This document shows, piece after piece, positions 5,774 through 13,614 of a stretch of DNA of 64,000 nt. Position 1 is the stretch's first letter. The number at the start of each line of letters is the position of its first letter. This DNA comes from Roseovarius sp. ZX-A-9. Its GTDB lineage: Bacteria > Pseudomonadota > Alphaproteobacteria > Rhodobacterales > Rhodobacteraceae. The notes below the pieces were generated by a model. That model was not told the origin of the DNA and did no database searches. It worked only from the letters and a program-made list of their open reading frames with translations. A program made the translations under genes and the position numbers. The DNA lies in NCBI RefSeq assembly GCF_028369135.1, contig NZ_JAPWHW010000014.1, positions 62,001-126,000 of the forward strand, given 5' to 3'.

Positions 5774-5848
5774 TGGGATGTAGCCAAGTGGTAAGGCAAC
5801 TGTTTTTGGTACAGTGTACCGTAGGTTCGAATCCTACCATCCCAGCCA
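5774..5848 (+). tRNA. tRNA-Gln (anticodon TTG)
   Basis: A complete cloverleaf. The acceptor arms TGGGATG and CATCCCA pair fully, followed by discriminator G and an encoded CCA. The D arm contains AGTGGTAAGGC, the anticodon loop is TTTTGGT with anticodon TTG, and the T arm has GGTTCGAATCC. The length is 75 bases including CCA. It stands at the left border of an accessory patch (5.8-10.5 kb). Confidence 0.97.
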
Positions 5849-6305: not shown

Positions 6306-9300
6306 ATGGCACCATCTTACGATGCTGTCTTTCATCCCAATTCCTTCGATTTTTCCGAGGTTATTCCCCTGAAACAGCTGCAGACTGACAAGCGACTACA
6401 TGTCTCGATTCTCTTCATCTTGTTGGCTCTGTACGCCTTTTGGTTCGGTTCACGCTATCCCGCGTTGAATGAGAAGGCATTGATGGGAATGCGGACGGAA
6501 ACATCCGGGATCGCGTTCGATACGTTGATCGAGGTGTTGCCCGGTGCCGGGCTGCTAAAGGCTGTTTTTGCCAATACGATCAATTGGATCTACACGAACT
6601 GGAAGGGCATGACCTTCGGTGTGATTTTTGGTGCCGCCATGCTGACCTTGCTGGGGTTGCTGCCAAAACGTCAATTCAAAGGCTATTTCTCGAATGCCCT
6701 GATGGGCACGATGATGGGGGCGCCCTTGGGGGTTTGCGTCAATTGTGCGGCCCCGATTGCACAAGGTCTGCATGAGGCAGGCATGCGCCGAGAGACAACT
6801 CTGGCGGCCCTGATCGCGTCGCCATCGTTGAATGTCATTGTCGTTACGATGAGCTTTGCGCTGTTGCCGCTGCATCTGGCCCTGATCAAGCTGCTGGCGA
6901 TGCTGATCTTTCTCTTGTTAGTATTGCCGGTTCTGGTGCGATTGCTCGACCGTGTCGTCCCGGCCAAACCTACAGCGGATCTCGCACCAACGATCCGAAA
7001 GAACTCGTTGCTGCGCTCGATTGGCGAGAAAATCCACCTGGGCGTGCATTCGACGGTTGCCCAGCAACGGTATCTGCAAGCCTTGCGTTGGTTCCTGCGC
7101 ACCTATGCAGAGAATTTCCTGATGCTGGTGCGTATCACGGTCCCTCTTATGCTTTTGGCCGGTTTTGCCGGTGCGATGATTGTCACGGTGTTGCCAGTCG
7201 AAACGCTGTTGTCCCACGTCACCTTTTTTGATGGGCGAATGGGCGCGTTTCTGGCGCTTTGCCTCATTGCCGCCTTTGCACTGTTCCTGCCGGTTCCCAT
7301 CGCATTCGACGTGATCCTGGTTTCCGTTCTCTATGCGGCGGGCTGGCGGGATTACTTTGCCATGACGGCATTGCTCGCGCTGGGGACTTTCAGCATCTAT
7401 TCGTTCCTGATTGTCGGCAGGGCGATGTCCTACCGCATCGCATTGTCAATGAGCGCCGCATTATTCTGTCTGTCCATCGCCGGCGGCATCGTGGCATGGG
7501 GTGCCGCACCTTATGCGCAGAGTTTCCGCTGGGAGCAGGTGGCAGCCATCTTGCAAAACGCCAAACCGCGCCAGACCGTGAATGAAGCCGCTGTGTTGCC
7601 GGATGTGACAGCGGATATCCAAGAGACCCCCGCAGCCGTTCCCGTCTCGCGCAGCCGCTCCACAAACCTCATTTCCCATACCGGCCCCGGTCGTGTCACG
7701 GTATCAGAAGCGCCCCTAGAGTCGGCAGCCGCGCCAGCCGTTGGCAACACGGCGTTCGCCCGCATAGACGGCGCCGACATCGGGCTAGACCTGATCCACG
7801 ACGCGGCAGCGCTCAAACAAATCGAACCGTATACATATTTTGGCGGAATCGCTGCCGGAGACATCGACGGGGATGGGTGGGACGAAATCGTCATGGGGAA
7901 TGGCCCGGAAACCGGCGGCCTTTCGCTCTACATGAACCGGCAGGGCCGGTTTGTCCGACAGGATGTTTCGCTGGGGCAGATTGACGGCGCTTTTGTCAAC
8001 GCGGCGACGCTGGTCGATCTGGACAATGACGGAGCACTTGATCTCTTCGTATCGACCTTCATGGAAGGCGCGTACATCTTTCGAAACATAGGCGGGCAGT
8101 TTGATCCGAAAGAGGCCACCCGTCTTCCCAACCGTGACGCGCTTATGATGGGTGCCCCTGCTTTTGCCGATCTGGATCATGACGGTGATCTGGATATCCT
8201 CGCAGCCAACTGGGTCGGGGCTGCGGCCGTCGGTTTTGGCGCGGACCGCCGCGCAAGGGACCGCATCCTGTGGAACAACGGGACCAGTTTCGAGCCAATG
8301 GAACTGCCGGGCGTGCCGGGGGAAAGCCTGAGCACCCTGATCATGGATATCAACGGCGATGGCCATGACGACATTCTCATCGGCGATGACGGCTTCCACT
8401 CGGACAAGGCCTATCTCAACACCGGGCACCACAGCTACAAACTGCTTCGGAAATCCGACGGAGTGATGCCCTATCTCGGCCAGGCGACGATGAGCCTGGA
8501 TTCCGGAGATTTTGACAATGACGGCGAGATGGAAGTTTACCTGTCCCAGATCACCCAGGCCAAATCAAGCGAACGTCAGGATTACTGCAACCCAGAGATG
8601 AAGCTGTTGCATGGAGAGACCGCAGATTGCGAGACCATGCTGCTCGATCGCAGCAAACTGTTCGCAGCGACGAACCCATTGCTGCCCAACTGCATGACCA
8701 TGCAGGACCCGCAGATGCGCGCGATCTGTGGAATGTACGCGCATATCCGGCGCGCGGGCCTGAGCGGTGCGTCATATGACTGCGGCCAATTCCCGGCGGG
8801 CTGGCCGGTCATGCGTCGCCTTTGCGAGGCTTTGTTGCCCACCCAGATACTGCCCCCGGCAGAAATCGCGGACGATAACGCAAGGCACGATCCTCTGGGC
8901 TATCGGGCCGATAGAAGCCTGCTGCTGTCAAAGACGGAAAACGGAGCGTTTGTCGATCTCTCGACGCAGACGCATTCCGACCGCCCCGGATGGAGCTGGA
9001 ACGCGAAATTCACCGATCTGGATCAGGACGGGTGGCAGGATATATTTGTCGCAACAGGTTACATTCCCTTGCCGCCCTATGCCTCGAATGCCTTTTACCG
9101 CAACACCGGGACGGGGACATTTTCGCATATGTCCTCCGAATACGGTCTGGCGGATGCCATCCCAACGACATCATATGTCTTGATGGACTATGACCGAGAC
9201 GGAGACGTCGATGTTATCCGTGCGCCAAGCACTGCGGGCGTCATCGTGCATCGCAATGACCGCCCCGATGGCCAGGGCTTGTGGATCAGGCTTCGCGATG

Positions 9301-9539
9301 AAGTCGGTAACACCTCGGGCATCGGAAGTCGGATCACGATCGAAACAGAGGCTGGCACCCAGGTTCGCATCATCAAGACAAGTGGTGGGTTTGTCTCCTT
9401 CGATCCGATCCAGGCGCATTTCGGCTTGGGCTCTGAACCGTCAGCCGCCCGCGTGACCGTCGATTGGCCCGATGGCGCGCAAAGCACCATGGCCGGCCCG
9501 GTACAAGGCAACCGCGAGCTTATTTTCACACGTCACTAG
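6306..9539 (+). CDS. Permease fused to FG-GAP beta-propeller and ASPIC/UnbV domain
   Basis: A 1077-residue protein. Residues about 25-405 are polytopic and resemble the DUF318/ArsP-type permease family. The signature is CVNCAAPIAQGL with Cys144 and Cys147, followed by LAALIASPSLN. A linker (about 410-485) leads to seven calcium-loop FG-GAP/VCBS repeats (DIDGDGWDE, DLDNDGALD, DLDHDGDLD, DINGDGHDD, DFDNDGEME, DLDQDGWQD, DYDRDGDVD). Between the fifth and sixth repeats is an insert with six cysteines (about 760-850). Residues about 988-1075 match ASPIC/UnbV (IKTSGGFVSFDPIQAHFGLG). The predicted form is a membrane permease carrying a periplasmic propeller; substrate unknown. No strong ribosome site precedes the ATG, so the exact start is uncertain. 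Codon use is less GC-biased than the neighbours, which hints at transfer. Confidence 0.85.
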   Translation: MAPSYDAVFHPNSFDFSEVIPLKQLQTDKRLHVSILFILLALYAFWFGSRYPALNEKALMGMRTETSGIAFDTLIEVLPGAGLLKAVFANTINWIYTNWKGMTFGVIFGAAMLTLLGLLPKRQFKGYFSNALMGTMMGAPLGVCVNCAAPIAQGLHEAGMRRETTLAALIASPSLNVIVVTMSFALLPLHLALIKLLAMLIFLLLVLPVLVRLLDRVVPAKPTADLAPTIRKNSLLRSIGEKIHLGVHSTVAQQRYLQALRWFLRTYAENFLMLVRITVPLMLLAGFAGAMIVTVLPVETLLSHVTFFDGRMGAFLALCLIAAFALFLPVPIAFDVILVSVLYAAGWRDYFAMTALLALGTFSIYSFLIVGRAMSYRIALSMSAALFCLSIAGGIVAWGAAPYAQSFRWEQVAAILQNAKPRQTVNEAAVLPDVTADIQETPAAVPVSRSRSTNLISHTGPGRVTVSEAPLESAAAPAVGNTAFARIDGADIGLDLIHDAAALKQIEPYTYFGGIAAGDIDGDGWDEIVMGNGPETGGLSLYMNRQGRFVRQDVSLGQIDGAFVNAATLVDLDNDGALDLFVSTFMEGAYIFRNIGGQFDPKEATRLPNRDALMMGAPAFADLDHDGDLDILAANWVGAAAVGFGADRRARDRILWNNGTSFEPMELPGVPGESLSTLIMDINGDGHDDILIGDDGFHSDKAYLNTGHHSYKLLRKSDGVMPYLGQATMSLDSGDFDNDGEMEVYLSQITQAKSSERQDYCNPEMKLLHGETADCETMLLDRSKLFAATNPLLPNCMTMQDPQMRAICGMYAHIRRAGLSGASYDCGQFPAGWPVMRRLCEALLPTQILPPAEIADDNARHDPLGYRADRSLLLSKTENGAFVDLSTQTHSDRPGWSWNAKFTDLDQDGWQDIFVATGYIPLPPYASNAFYRNTGTGTFSHMSSEYGLADAIPTTSYVLMDYDRDGDVDVIRAPSTAGVIVHRNDRPDGQGLWIRLRDEVGNTSGIGSRITIETEAGTQVRIIKTSGGFVSFDPIQAHFGLGSEPSAARVTVDWPDGAQSTMAGPVQGNRELIFTRH

Positions 9540-10020
9540 GAGATAACCGCCCGTATTCGGCCGCCCAGTCCATTGATGGTCTGAAACTCACGAGATCGTA
9601 CGTCTCAGCATCCAAAAGACATATCTATGAAGCACAGCATCTGAGCTGGAAGTGCAGATTGCGTGGCATGGGTGCCGGCAGGTCTCAACGGGGATCGACC
9701 TCGAGACCGCACCGGGACGGCCGTTGCTCGGATCGGCGCGCGCGGTTTTTCTTGGCCGCGAGCCGGTAATTTGATTGCCGAGATGCCGGTAATGCACCAT
9801 CATTAAGTTATGATCTATAGATACTGATCTATCAGGGGCATTCAGCTACGACTACCGTGGTCTTGTCCCGTGACCGAGGGAGGTTCGCGCTTGGTGTGCA
9901 CAATCCAAACGTTCTGCGATCAGAAAACCTGTCAGAAATTCACCAGACAAGAAAAACATATTCACCCCGAAGGGCCGTTGATGAGCAGCGCCAAAGCCCA
10001 TTCACGTTGAGAAGACCGAT
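9540..10020 (+). other. Intergenic, possible decayed coding remnants
   Basis: There are 481 bases without a convincing gene. One short open stretch on the plus strand at about 9631-9771 reads like the tail of a PaaI-type thioesterase (LEVQIAWHG, then ARAVFLGREPV before a stop), but it is too short to assign. The stretch next to the chimeric pseudogene (9780-10000) is AT-richer. The whole segment looks like a site of past deletion. Confidence 0.3.
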
Positions 10021-10545
10021 ATGACATCTGAAAGCTTTCCTCCCCCGCAAAACGCCTGTGAGAAAATTCAGGCTTTGGAAACGGAACTGCGATCAACCGT
10101 CACCTGTCGGATATCGACGGCCAGCGCCGTTCGCGAACAGCACGGGAATGCCCTGACATGGGGCGTCAATCAGCCGCCCGATCTGGTGGCTTTTGTCACA
10201 TCCACCCAAGAGGTCGCGCAGATCGTGCGCCTTGCGGCGTCGCATAGCGTTCCGGTGGCGTCAGTCGCTAACCGCTTTGGCGAGCAATGTGAGATTTTTC
10301 TCGATAGCGGTTTTCGTCGAGGCAGCGATATCGCAAAGGCGTTGTCGCTTGGGGCCAAGGGCGCGTTTTTCGGCCGTACGACGCTTTACGATCTGGCGGC
10401 GGGTGGTCAGGCCGGGGTCGAGATGGCGCTGCAAATGCTATCGGATGAACTGGAAACCTGCATGGGGCAGATTGGGTGTGCCCGCATTGCCGATCTTGAA
10501 CAGGCGACAACCGTGCAAAACGCGCCGTCTTCCGCTCCCTCCTGA
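10021..10545 (+). pseudogene. Chimeric remnant: FAD-linked oxidase N-terminus joined to FMN hydroxyacid dehydrogenase C-terminus
   Basis: A 174-codon open frame made of two unrelated enzymes. Residues about 18-80 (REQHGNALTW, PPDLVAFVTSTQEVAQIVRL, then ASHSVPV) match the start of the GlcD/D-lactate dehydrogenase FAD-binding PCMH family, just before its FAD-binding glycine loop. Residues about 83-165 (EIFLDSGFRRGSDIAKALSL, then GAFFGRTTLYDLAAGGQAGV, then MGQIGCARIADL) match the extreme C-terminus of FMN-dependent alpha-hydroxyacid dehydrogenases (LldD/mandelate dehydrogenase). Neither catalytic core is complete, so a fusion through deletion is the simplest reading. Both parent families oxidise 2-hydroxyacids, so the parents may have been operon neighbours. 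Activity is unlikely. Confidence 0.75.
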
Positions 10546-10594
10546 ACAGCACCGCCGGTCAGGGATAGCCGGATACACTCGCCGGAAAATCGGT

Positions 10595-11638
10595 TTAGCT
10601 CGCGACGCTTTCGTCGATCATTTCCACCGCAAGCGCGGCAAGGATCGGCACGGTCTGGCCGTATTGCAGCGCGGTCTCGGCGTTGGCGGCATTGCCGTCC
10701 AGATAGCGCCGATAGATCCCTTGCAGGATCGCCGTCAGGCGAAAGAACGAGAACGCCAGATAATAGCTCCAGTTGTCGATGCCCGGCAGGCCGCGATGGC
10801 GACAATAGGTGGCCACGTACTCGGCCTCGTCCGGGATGCCCAAAGTGGCGCGATCGACGCCGCCCAGCCCCTTGAAGGCGTTCTCATTGGGTAGCCGCCA
10901 CTGCATGCATTGATAGGCCAGATCGGCAAGCGGATGCCCAAGCGTCGAAAGCTCCCAGTCCAGCAGCGCGCGCACTTCGGCGCTGCCTTCCGCAAAGATC
11001 ATGTTGTCGATGCGAAAATCGCCATGCACAAGGCTGACGGCACCGTCATCCTCGGGCTGGTTCGCCTCGAGCCAGCCGATCAGCCGTTCGATATCCGGGT
11101 TCGTCTCGACTTCGGCGGCGCGGTATTGCCGCGTCCAGGTGGCGAACTGGCGGGCGAAATAATTACCCGGGCGACCGTAGTCGCCCAGCCCGCAAGCCTC
11201 GATGTCGACCATGTGCAGATCCGCCAGCAGCGCAGCCATGGCGCCGTATATCTGGCCGCGCAGCGCCGAGGTCATGCCCGGCAATGCGGGATCCCAATGG
11301 GTCACGCCCGACACCATCTGCATCACGATATAGCGTCGATCCAGCGTTTCGTCGGCGCCGCCCTGCAGCAGCATCCGCGGCACCGGAACGCGGGTGTCGC
11401 GCAGCGCGTCCATCACGCGGAACTCGCGGTCCACCGCATGGGCACCCTTGAGCAACGGGCCGGGTGGCTGCACCCGCAGGACCGCGCAACTCTCCGGTCC
11501 TTCCAGCAGGTAGGTCGGGTTCGATTGCCCCTTGCCAAAGGCACGCACCTGCGGCGTGCCGCCAAGGGACGGCACACGCGCCGCGATCACCGGGGCGAGC
11601 GCTGCGATGTCAGCAGGGATGGCGGCCAGATCGGTCAT
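10595..11638 (-). CDS. Phosphotransferase (APH/choline-kinase fold), ACAD10/11- or LvaA-like
   Basis: A 347-residue kinase-fold protein. It has the catalytic loop [12 protein letters not shown] (HGDxxxxN) and the metal-binding segment [20 protein letters not shown], as in the aminoglycoside phosphotransferase superfamily. Proteins of this branch sit next to, or are fused to, acyl-CoA dehydrogenases. They phosphorylate the 4-hydroxyl of hydroxyacyl-CoAs (LvaA in Pseudomonas putida, ACAD10/11 in animals). It overlaps the acyl-CoA dehydrogenase gene by four bases (ATGA), so the two are translationally coupled. It is the last gene of the minus-strand operon. The hydroxyacyl-CoA kinase role is inferred from family and context. 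Confidence 0.85.
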
Positions 11639-12846
11639 TCCGGCGCGTAGCGTTTCAGCATCTGCCGCGCCAGCGCATCCTGATGCACCTCGTCCGGGCC
11701 GTCAGCGATGCGGATCGTGCGGGCATAGGCGAACAACCCGGCCAGCACGGTATCCTGACTGAGGCCACCGGCGCCATGCACCTGTATCGCCCGGTCGATC
11801 ACGGTCTGGACCATCTGCGGGATGACGATCTTGGCCATGCCAATCATATCACGTGCATCCTTGTTGCCCAGCCGGTCCATCTTTTCTGCCGCCGCCATCG
11901 CCAGTAGCCTGCCCTGCTCGATCTCGCAGGCCGACAGCGCGATCTGCTGACGTACCACGCCTTGATCCGACAGAGGCTTTCCGAACGCATGGCGCGACTT
12001 CGCACGGCTGCACATCATTTCCAGCGCGCGCTGCGCCCCGCCAATGAGGCGCATGCAGTGATGGATACGACCGGGCCCAAGCCGCCCCTGCGCAATCTCG
12101 AATCCACGCCCTTCGCCCAACAGGATGTTCGTCGCGGGCACGCGAACATTGTCGAAAGTGATTTCGGCGTGCCCATGCGGCGCATCATCGGCTCCGAATA
12201 CGCTGAGCGGGCGGATGACGGTCACGCCGGGCGTGTCCATGGGCACGAGGATCATCGACTGCTGCTTGTGCCGCTCGGCGCTGGTATCGCTTTTGCCCAT
12301 CACGATCAGGATCTTGCAACGCGGATCGTTGGCCCCGGATGACCACCACTTGCGGCCATTGACGACGTAATCATCGCCGTCCCGGATGATCGACGCCTCT
12401 ACATTGGTGGCGTCAGACGATGCCACCGCCGGTTCGGTCATGCAAAAGGCCGAGCGTATCTCACCGGCCAGAAGCGGCGTCAGCCATTCCGCCTGCTGCG
12501 CCGGAGTGCCGTATTTGATCAGCACTTCCATGTTGCCGGTATCGGGCGCGTTGCAGTTGAACACCTCCGGCGCAATCAGGGAACGGCCCATGATCTCGGC
12601 CAGCGGCGCGTAGTCGAAATTGCTCAGGCCAGCGCCAAACTCGGGGTATGGGCACCAGAGGTTCCAAAGCCCGGCGTCGCGCGCTTCGGCCTTGAGCATC
12701 TCGATCACGGGCGGGATGGTCCAGCGGTCGGCCGCGGTTTCAACATGGTTGAAATATGCCGCCTCGGCGGGGATCACCTTGGCCTCCATGAACGCCGTGA
12801 GGCGCGATTGCAGGTCGGCAATGCGATCGTTTGCAGCAAGTTTCAT
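11635..12846 (-). CDS. Acyl-CoA dehydrogenase family protein (LvaC/ACAD11-like)
   Basis: A 403-residue flavoprotein. FAD and substrate motifs are [17 protein letters not shown] and [15 protein letters not shown], with [20 protein letters not shown] at the C-terminus. The GPDEVH ending is usual in the ACAD10/11-like branch rather than in classical short- or medium-chain enzymes. In the Lva/ACAD11 scheme this enzyme takes a 4-phospho-hydroxyacyl-CoA and forms the 3-hydroxy isomer. Coupled overlap with the phosphotransferase supports that partnership. It begins four bases after the stop of the SDR gene on the same strand. A plain acyl-CoA dehydrogenase reaction remains possible. Confidence 0.88.
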
Positions 12847-12849
12847 GTG

Positions 12850-13614
12850 TCAGATCCCCGTAAGAGTTGCGCCGCCATCGACGGTAAGCGTGGTGCCAGT
12901 CATGAAGCTGCCCGCGTCTGACGCGAGCAAGAGAAGCGGCCCGTTCAGTTCCGACATGTTGCCGAGGCGGCGCGGGAACAGCTTGCCGATCAGTTTCTTT
13001 CCAGCGGCACTTTGGAAAAATTCGGCGTTGATGTCAGTCTCGAAATAACCCGGCGCAATGGCGTTGACGCGGATATCGTGCCGCCCCAGCTCTCGTGCCA
13101 TCGCCTTGGTCATGTGCAACACGCCTGCCTTGGCGGCGGCGTAATTGGTCTGGGTCGGCTGCACCACCTGCCCCAGGATCGAGGCAATGTTGATGATGGA
13201 TCCGCCTTTGCCGCGCTCGGCCATGATCCGGGCCGCGATCTGGGCGCAGCGCCATACGCCACCAAGGTCAGTCTCGGTCACCGCCGCCCAATCGGCCTCT
13301 TCCATTTCCAGAAAAGGCGCCGTGCGGGCAATTCCGGCGTTGTTGATCAGGATATCGACGGTTCCGTGCCTGTTCGCGAAGGCCGCAAAGGCAGTCTCCA
13401 GCGCCGCACGATCCGTGACGTCGGCAGGATGCGTGTCAGCGTCGATACCCGCCTCTGCCAGTGATTTCGCAACTTGTTCCAGCTTGTCCTGGCTGCGCGC
13501 GATCAGACACACCTGTGCGCCCGCATCGCCCAGAACCTGCGCAAAATGCGCTCCCAGACCCGAGGAGGCACCGGTTATGACGGCGATCTTGCCAGTGAGG
13601 TCCATACTCGTCAT
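12850..13614 (-). CDS. SDR family oxidoreductase
   Basis: A 254-residue classical short-chain dehydrogenase. It has the cofactor motif TGASSGLG near residue 14, then NNAG, the catalytic serine in IINIASILGQ, and YAAAKAG (YxxxK). The tail MTGTTLTVDGGATL is normal for FabG-like enzymes. The start is set at the ATG at 13614, whose ATGA overlaps the stop of the upstream thiolase gene. A longer upstream extension would simply repeat the thiolase tail in another frame. It probably oxidises or reduces a hydroxyacyl-CoA intermediate within this catabolic operon. Confidence 0.88.
   Translation of the reverse strand: MTSMDLTGKIAVITGASSGLGAHFAQVLGDAGAQVCLIARSQDKLEQVAKSLAEAGIDADTHPADVTDRAALETAFAAFANRHGTVDILINNAGIARTAPFLEMEEADWAAVTETDLGGVWRCAQIAARIMAERGKGGSIINIASILGQVVQPTQTNYAAAKAGVLHMTKAMARELGRHDIRVNAIAPGYFETDINAEFFQSAAGKKLIGKLFPRRLGNMSELNGPLLLLASDAGSFMTGTTLTVDGGATLTGI

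Follow-up and report, generated by a model that had tools for sequence, protein, structure and literature searches.

In the 64,000-nucleotide stretch of Roseovarius sp. ZX-A-9 DNA analysed here (the window), the open frame at positions 6306-9539 of the forward strand encodes, to judge by its sequence, a conserved one-chain membrane protein in which an ArsP_1-type carrier runs on into a calcium-binding propeller of the CRTAC1 type with an UnbV domain. The frame begins with an ATG at 6306 and closes with the stop codon at 9537-9539, and its own genome holds a single match to the 1077-residue product. Along the chain, a permease with Cys144 and Cys147 is followed by a linker, the calcium-loop propeller and the UnbV/ASPIC domain. 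Both halves belong to known families; the conserved joined form and the two kinds of neighbourhood in which it lies were found in no paper of the open-access literature searched. Public records call these proteins only 'FG-GAP-like repeat-containing protein'; as this name covers the FG-GAP half only, the carrier half has been overlooked.

The permease half was recognised by ArsP_1 (PF03773) at residues 117-396 (6654-7493, +), scoring 43.8 bits (cut-off 32.3), or 47.6 bits when the N-terminal part was scanned alone. When the fused permease was compared by hhalign with seven stand-alone ArsP_1 relatives, a probability of 99.0 (E 3.5e-18) was obtained, and the CVNC of the fused protein was aligned to the CSCC of the relatives. 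All seven sampled stand-alone relatives keep a C-x-C at the first helix break, whereas the window copy has CVNC at this place (Cys144-Val-Asn-Cys147; 6735-6746, +) and the fused family CxNC. The AlphaFold model of the whole chain was moderate (predicted local distance difference test, pLDDT, 63.2; predicted template modelling score, pTM, 0.58; alignment of 7 sequences), with helices to about residue 417, strands after it and a helical insert at about 751-862. The permease modelled alone (residues 22-430) was better, with a pLDDT of 70.7 and a pTM of 0.70 from a 7-sequence alignment. In this permease model CxNC lies at a break between two short helices and PVPIAFD (residues 329-335, including Asp335; 7290-7310, +) at a helix break in the second half, each motif coming after its break, and the two breaks may be paired as one ligand site. 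C144, N146, C147, P329, P331 and D335 showed no variation in any of 45 aligned copies. Ahead of the ArsP_1 core stand an extra N-terminal transmembrane helix, modelled at residues 29-48, and a conserved loop (together residues 29-100; 6390-6605, +), with a mean pairwise identity of 0.513 and 12/72 columns invariant over the 45 copies. The fused protein is thus like the ArsP, SaoE and SO_0444-type permeases in its Pfam match, its hhalign result and the cysteines at the same helix break, but it differs from them by CVNC in place of CSC/CSCC, by the extra first helix and loop, by the attached ectodomain and by having no recognised metal or arsenic genes beside it, and its scores for the SaoE and SO_0444 equivalogs (27 and 25.7 bits) are far below the NCBIfam curated cut-offs of 325 and 300.

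Beyond a variable linker (residues 416-482; 7551-7751, +), the ectodomain matched FG-GAP_3 with 126.9 bits (cut-off 26.9), FG-GAP with 53.6 bits and, at residues 1005-1065 (9318-9500, +), UnbV_ASPIC with 49.4 bits (cut-off 23.4). Seven strict Dx[DN]xDG calcium loops were counted in the window copy, five of them (519, 571, 622, 681 and 735) in the first part of the propeller (residues 483-750; 7752-8555, +) and two (904 and 961) in the remaining part (residues 863-1000; 8892-9305, +). Seven strict loops are found in the window copy only, the other 44 aligned copies having 3 to 6. Between loops 5 and 6 lies the helical insert (residues 751-862; 8556-8891, +), in which the helices are modelled with low pLDDT and the cysteines 761, 796, 808, 826 and 840 are invariant in 45/45 copies. 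Murine CRTAC1 (9etn) was matched both by the ectodomain profile (hmmsearch, E 7.2e-24) and by the fold (Foldseek, E 9.7e-17, TM 0.67 by target). FG-GAP repeats, UnbV domain and overall fold are therefore shared with CRTAC1 and the ASPIC/UnbV proteins, from which the fused protein differs by the multi-helix carrier and the Cys-rich insert between calcium loops 5 and 6. Because of the calcium loops, the cysteines and the habit of the family, the propeller would sit outside the cytoplasm.

When peptide patterns of the window protein were run over 84,980 species genomes, 30 loci were found. Full-length fusions made up six of these (Parerythrobacter, Pontixanthobacter, Citromicrobium, Pelagimonas, Leisingera and Phaeobacter), while the other 24 matched only at residues of at least 426. 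Besides the window's own genome, five of 146 relatives carry the full fusion (G003, G020, G045, G050 and G088), with frames of 1019-1055 residues in the first four, and eight plasmid records have a query coverage of at least 80%. A permease-only profile of 12 sequences was then scored at E 1e-8 over overlapping sets of 385 class, 398 phylum, 345 family and 249 G830-family genomes, on the best few first-look candidates of each genome, so that weak relatives may be missed but a close stand-alone version should not. Strong matches (385-597 bits) were obtained at 35 places in 34 genomes, all 35 of them within frames of 1017-1202 residues; seven other genomes had weak matches only (35.2-39.1 bits), in frames of 351-431 residues that are stand-alone ArsP_1 proteins.

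In all, 45 fused copies of 1000-1179 residues from two orders were aligned, leaving out the near-copies L154, L062 and L164 and the broken Parasedimentitalea copy L063, with locus L152 entered as two rows. Over these copies the mean pairwise identity was 0.515 for the permease versus 0.443 for the ectodomain, and 13.9% versus 7.4% of the columns were invariant. By region, identity peaked around CxNC (0.731) and was lowest in the insert (0.325) and the linker (0.256). As both identity and the share of invariant columns are higher in the permease, the membrane part is constrained at least as much as the ectodomain. Judged from these comparisons, the fusion is conserved and old, and the joined form is the rule, being seen in several dozen bacteria of marine origin. 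An earlier note on this DNA had read the gene as one 1077-residue frame joining a permease, seven FG-GAP repeats and UnbV/ASPIC, which the open frame and the Pfam matches over their cut-offs bear out; the CxxC at Cys144/Cys147 that it pointed out is invariant in all 45 copies, the N-terminal part does have permease homology, and the rare fusion artefact that it had allowed for is not what was found, the stand-alone relatives being far more distant than the fused ones.

In the tree of the 45 copies, a clade of 16 rows (clade A; support 100/100) holds 14 Sphingomonadales copies, the window copy and one copy from genome G1135. The 29 other rows are on the Roseobacteraceae side: 27 of them form a core clade, and the remaining two, L153 and one G1135 copy, branch off outside this clade on long branches. 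Six Sphingomonadales copies make up the sister group of the window copy (support 100/97). The G1135 locus with its two copies (L152) was counted with clade A, as one of its copies falls there.

The genes around the copies were compared within the fetched flanks. Of the 27 core loci, 24 have a small secreted protein, 21 have Sel1 proteins, 18 an S74 tail-fibre-like protein, 14 type II secretion system (T2SS) genes and 6 a giant Ig-like protein. None of these partners was present in the 16 clade A loci, which share with the core loci only genes labelled as sulfotransferases (10/27 core, 11/16 clade A), a link that was scored without a background control and is not relied on. GspG was present somewhere in the genome of all 21 core-clade carriers tested, and in 14 of them it lay within 25 kb on the same contig (in two cases across the origin of a circular plasmid). 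It was found in 28 of 198 genomes of the family sample, 10 of these 28 being known carriers, in 5 of 13 Sphingomonadales carriers tested, and neither in the window genome nor in G1135, both of which have copies outside the core clade. Fisher tests, in which relatedness is ignored, gave p values of 6.5e-10 and 4.9e-4, and of 0.0025 with the window genome counted; all carriers of the family search were taken in the first test, for which only part of the 198 sample genomes had been tested for the fusion. The giant Ig-like autotransporter was rejected as an obligatory partner, being present in 6/27 core loci only, and a phage origin was also rejected, as no PHROG match was obtained at E 0.001. The small secreted protein of the core loci (L052 14770-15192, -; about 140 residues) matches no Pfam family. 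The giant protein is the next downstream gene in L025, L026, L056, L061, L062 and L141, and in L056 it has 11 DUF7933 stretches together with DUF11, Ig-like and Calx-beta domains.

The partners of the 16 clade A loci were Asn-synthase/lasso-cyclase-like (11), HprK-like (11), PqqD-like (9) and hydroxylase (8) genes, so that these copies often adjoin genes like those of the Sphingomonadales lasso-peptide loci. The two fusion copies of G1135, which are separated by about 12 kb, flank a co-directional lasso-like cassette that includes an acyl-ligase-like gene (L152 426-19226), and in Citromicrobium the hydroxylase gene starts three bases after the fusion gene. However, the cassette proteins scored below the curated lasso cut-offs (one representative each: cyclase 277.1 of 525 bits, PqqD 56 of 80, kinase 38.6 of 200), and the window copy has no cassette. 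Pontixanthobacter gene clusters of like make-up, including a lasso B2 protein, are tabulated as co-occurring with halotolerance in the accessible part of PMC10040529, in which a term search did not find the fusion.

These neighbourhoods point to secretion or surface-product loci, with no preference among substrate capture, partner assembly and surface binding. Arsenic or metal genes were recognised neither in the plasmid annotations, nor in the neighbour clusters present in at least three loci, nor among the neighbours scanned with Pfam, a set that did not include every neighbour. A metal or arsenic island was therefore rejected, and the earlier note's linking of the permease family to such genes is not supported for the copies looked at; its remark that it knew of no described system of this form agrees with the open-access literature searched, where no account of an FG-GAP, UnbV and permease fusion or of its two neighbourhoods was found.

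The fold of the permease was assessed with the model of this half alone. The top rows in Foldseek were TRAP carriers, with an E of about 0.09, which is above 0.001. When the model was compared by VIA-align with 793 chains, ArsB came first (Z 12.3, root-mean-square deviation 4.8, 267 aligned), in a ranking where Z differences of up to one unit count as ties and a Z below about 13 may reflect a common helical-bundle arrangement. By our own classification from the titles, 45 of the first 46 rows were elevator-type (NaS/NaDC/INDY/Pho90, CNT, TRAP, AbgT-type and plant DiT carriers), which is suggestive of an elevator-type fold. The mean numbers of lysine plus arginine over the loops were 2.8 at residues 117-127 and 4.4 at 212-262, which look cytoplasmic, and 0.5 at 296-312 and 0.3 at 330-350, which do not. 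The TRAP transporters, whose SiaQM chains are among the VIA rows, would offer a comparable idea of an elevator-type carrier with an external receptor, the likeness being one of function only; the fused protein differs from them in that no DctM or DctP family was among the five Pfam families listed for the window protein at E up to 1, and in that its carrier and its receptor, here a propeller, would share one chain.

The reading that we tentatively prefer, and which may well prove wrong, is that of a carrier with a tethered external receptor that would serve an export or surface-product locus. It is favoured because no part of the protein is better conserved than the carrier motif and because the neighbours handle secreted products. 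The carrier domain would transport a small ligand through the inner membrane, its substrate site putatively including CxNC, and the ectodomain would take up the ligand or hand it on, or else hold the product. The locus served would be that of the T2SS, Sel1 and tail-fibre-like genes in the Roseobacteraceae and the lasso-peptide-like cassette in the Sphingomonadales. A further step, which we consider rather unlikely, would be a new kind of carrier, in which an elevator-type membrane domain, covalently joined to a CRTAC1-type periplasmic receptor with its calcium propeller, supplies a small ligand to a secreted or ribosomal-peptide product or loads it onto that product, that is, a TRAP-like principle built from other parts and common to two export systems. 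Should the two halves act jointly, the family would offer a tractable example of a transporter that has a large external domain of its own, and would be informative about the fold and the range of the ArsP_1 family, whose fused permeases, as a profile of 12 sequences, match no solved PDB structure at E up to 1. The recurrent neighbours, namely the T2SS with the tail-fibre-like proteins and the lasso-like peptide cassette, would then provide testable partners.

Several results weigh against the tethered-receptor carrier. Regarding the neighbourhoods, those of clade A and of the core clade are quite different, so that a shared export role is a guess; T2SS genes lie inside the fetched flanks of just 14 of the 27 core loci, and in 7 of the 21 core carriers tested GspG is on another contig or far off. 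The window copy itself has neither GspG in its genome nor an adjoining cassette gene, and the S74 protein had no match in the window genome, in a search run without a positive control. Regarding the structure, to the ties and low Z values of the VIA-align ranking are added that Foldseek gave no PDB match of the permease model at E 0.001 or better, that the alignment behind the models had 7 sequences only, and that the loop at 49-100, with a mean of 4.7 lysines plus arginines over 52 residues, is a poor fit to the positive-inside rule. Moreover, a published analysis (PMC7176098, accessible part) places ArsP in the TOG superfamily, which disagrees with the elevator-type alignment.

The alternative that survives best, although it seems somewhat unlikely, is an anchor or assembly platform, in which a non-transporting membrane part would hold the propeller at the inner membrane, where secreted or surface proteins could dock on it or be chaperoned by it. 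The secretion and large surface-protein genes beside the Roseobacteraceae copies would suit such a role, and propellers of the CRTAC1 and integrin type are typically binding domains. However, the permease is better conserved than the ectodomain and has its peak at the invariant CxNC, which disfavours a mere anchor, since an anchor would have no need of ten helices or of a conserved motif.

An improbable second alternative is a thiol-redox conduit, in which CxNC would pass electrons across the membrane in a DsbD/CcdA-like manner to the Cys-rich insert or to a secreted partner. The membrane cysteine pair and the five insert cysteines are all invariant in 45/45 copies, and the proteins exported by the T2SS are as a rule folded, often with disulfide bonds. 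In contrast, no DsbD or CcdA family was among the five Pfam families listed for the window protein at E up to 1, CxNC aligns to the CSC/CSCC of ArsP_1 carriers and not to a redox family, and the top-ranked folds were carriers.

Even less probable is a resistance protein, namely an efflux pump for soft metals or organoarsenicals whose external part is a sensor or trap. Membership of ArsP_1 speaks for it, stand-alone relatives include a Cu/Zn efflux equivalog (L097, 426.9 bits), and the two-cysteine motif could bind a soft metal; against this stand the SaoE and SO_0444 scores, far under their cut-offs, and the finding that neither regulators nor resistance genes for metals or arsenic were recognised next to the copies examined. 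Finally, a fusion artefact or a decayed gene can be dismissed, since, although a plasmid copy is annotated in pieces and the window copy adjoins a gene remnant, the 45 aligned copies are fused, keep their motifs in two orders and have no close stand-alone version in sight.

The window copy lies 3' of a tRNA-Gln (TTG) gene identified with ARAGORN at 5774-5848 (+), which is preceded by genes for a gamma-glutamyltranspeptidase, a D-2-hydroxyacid dehydrogenase and an SH3 protein. On its right are an FMN-dehydrogenase remnant, an APH-type kinase and an acyl-CoA dehydrogenase. By blastn, synteny with three relatives (G011, G051 and G059) ends exactly at 5848, the last base of the tRNA; downstream of it these relatives (L180, L181 and L182) differ from the window and among themselves, and the DNA at 9540-12850 had matches elsewhere only, or none, in eight relatives. 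A clean empty site was therefore rejected in favour of a variable spot 3' of tRNA-Gln(TTG) in Roseovarius. As synteny ends at the tRNA and the tree places the copy among Sphingomonadales, the window copy was probably acquired horizontally beside the tRNA, as an orphan member of the family.

The remnant (10021-10545, +) is a 174-residue frame with only positions 264-346 of the 350 of FMN_dh (PF01070). It shares the low-G+C stretch of the fusion, with values of 0.53-0.60 at about 5.5-10.5 kb. Before this stretch, up to 5 kb, G+C is 0.62-0.67, and after it, at 10.5-12 kb, it is 0.64-0.66; a dip to 0.55-0.59 is also seen near 18-20 kb. A promoter scan gave 0 sites versus a mean of 2.0 in shuffled sequences. 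The neighbour labelled 'ABC' in the window is an ordinary ABC ATPase that was pulled into a loose cluster. Among the plasmid copies, that of Parasedimentitalea (L063 20046-23067) is annotated as three pieces. In G059 the spot next to the tRNA seems, by its frames only, to hold genes for an ArsR-type regulator and an arsenite carrier (L182 4255-5730).

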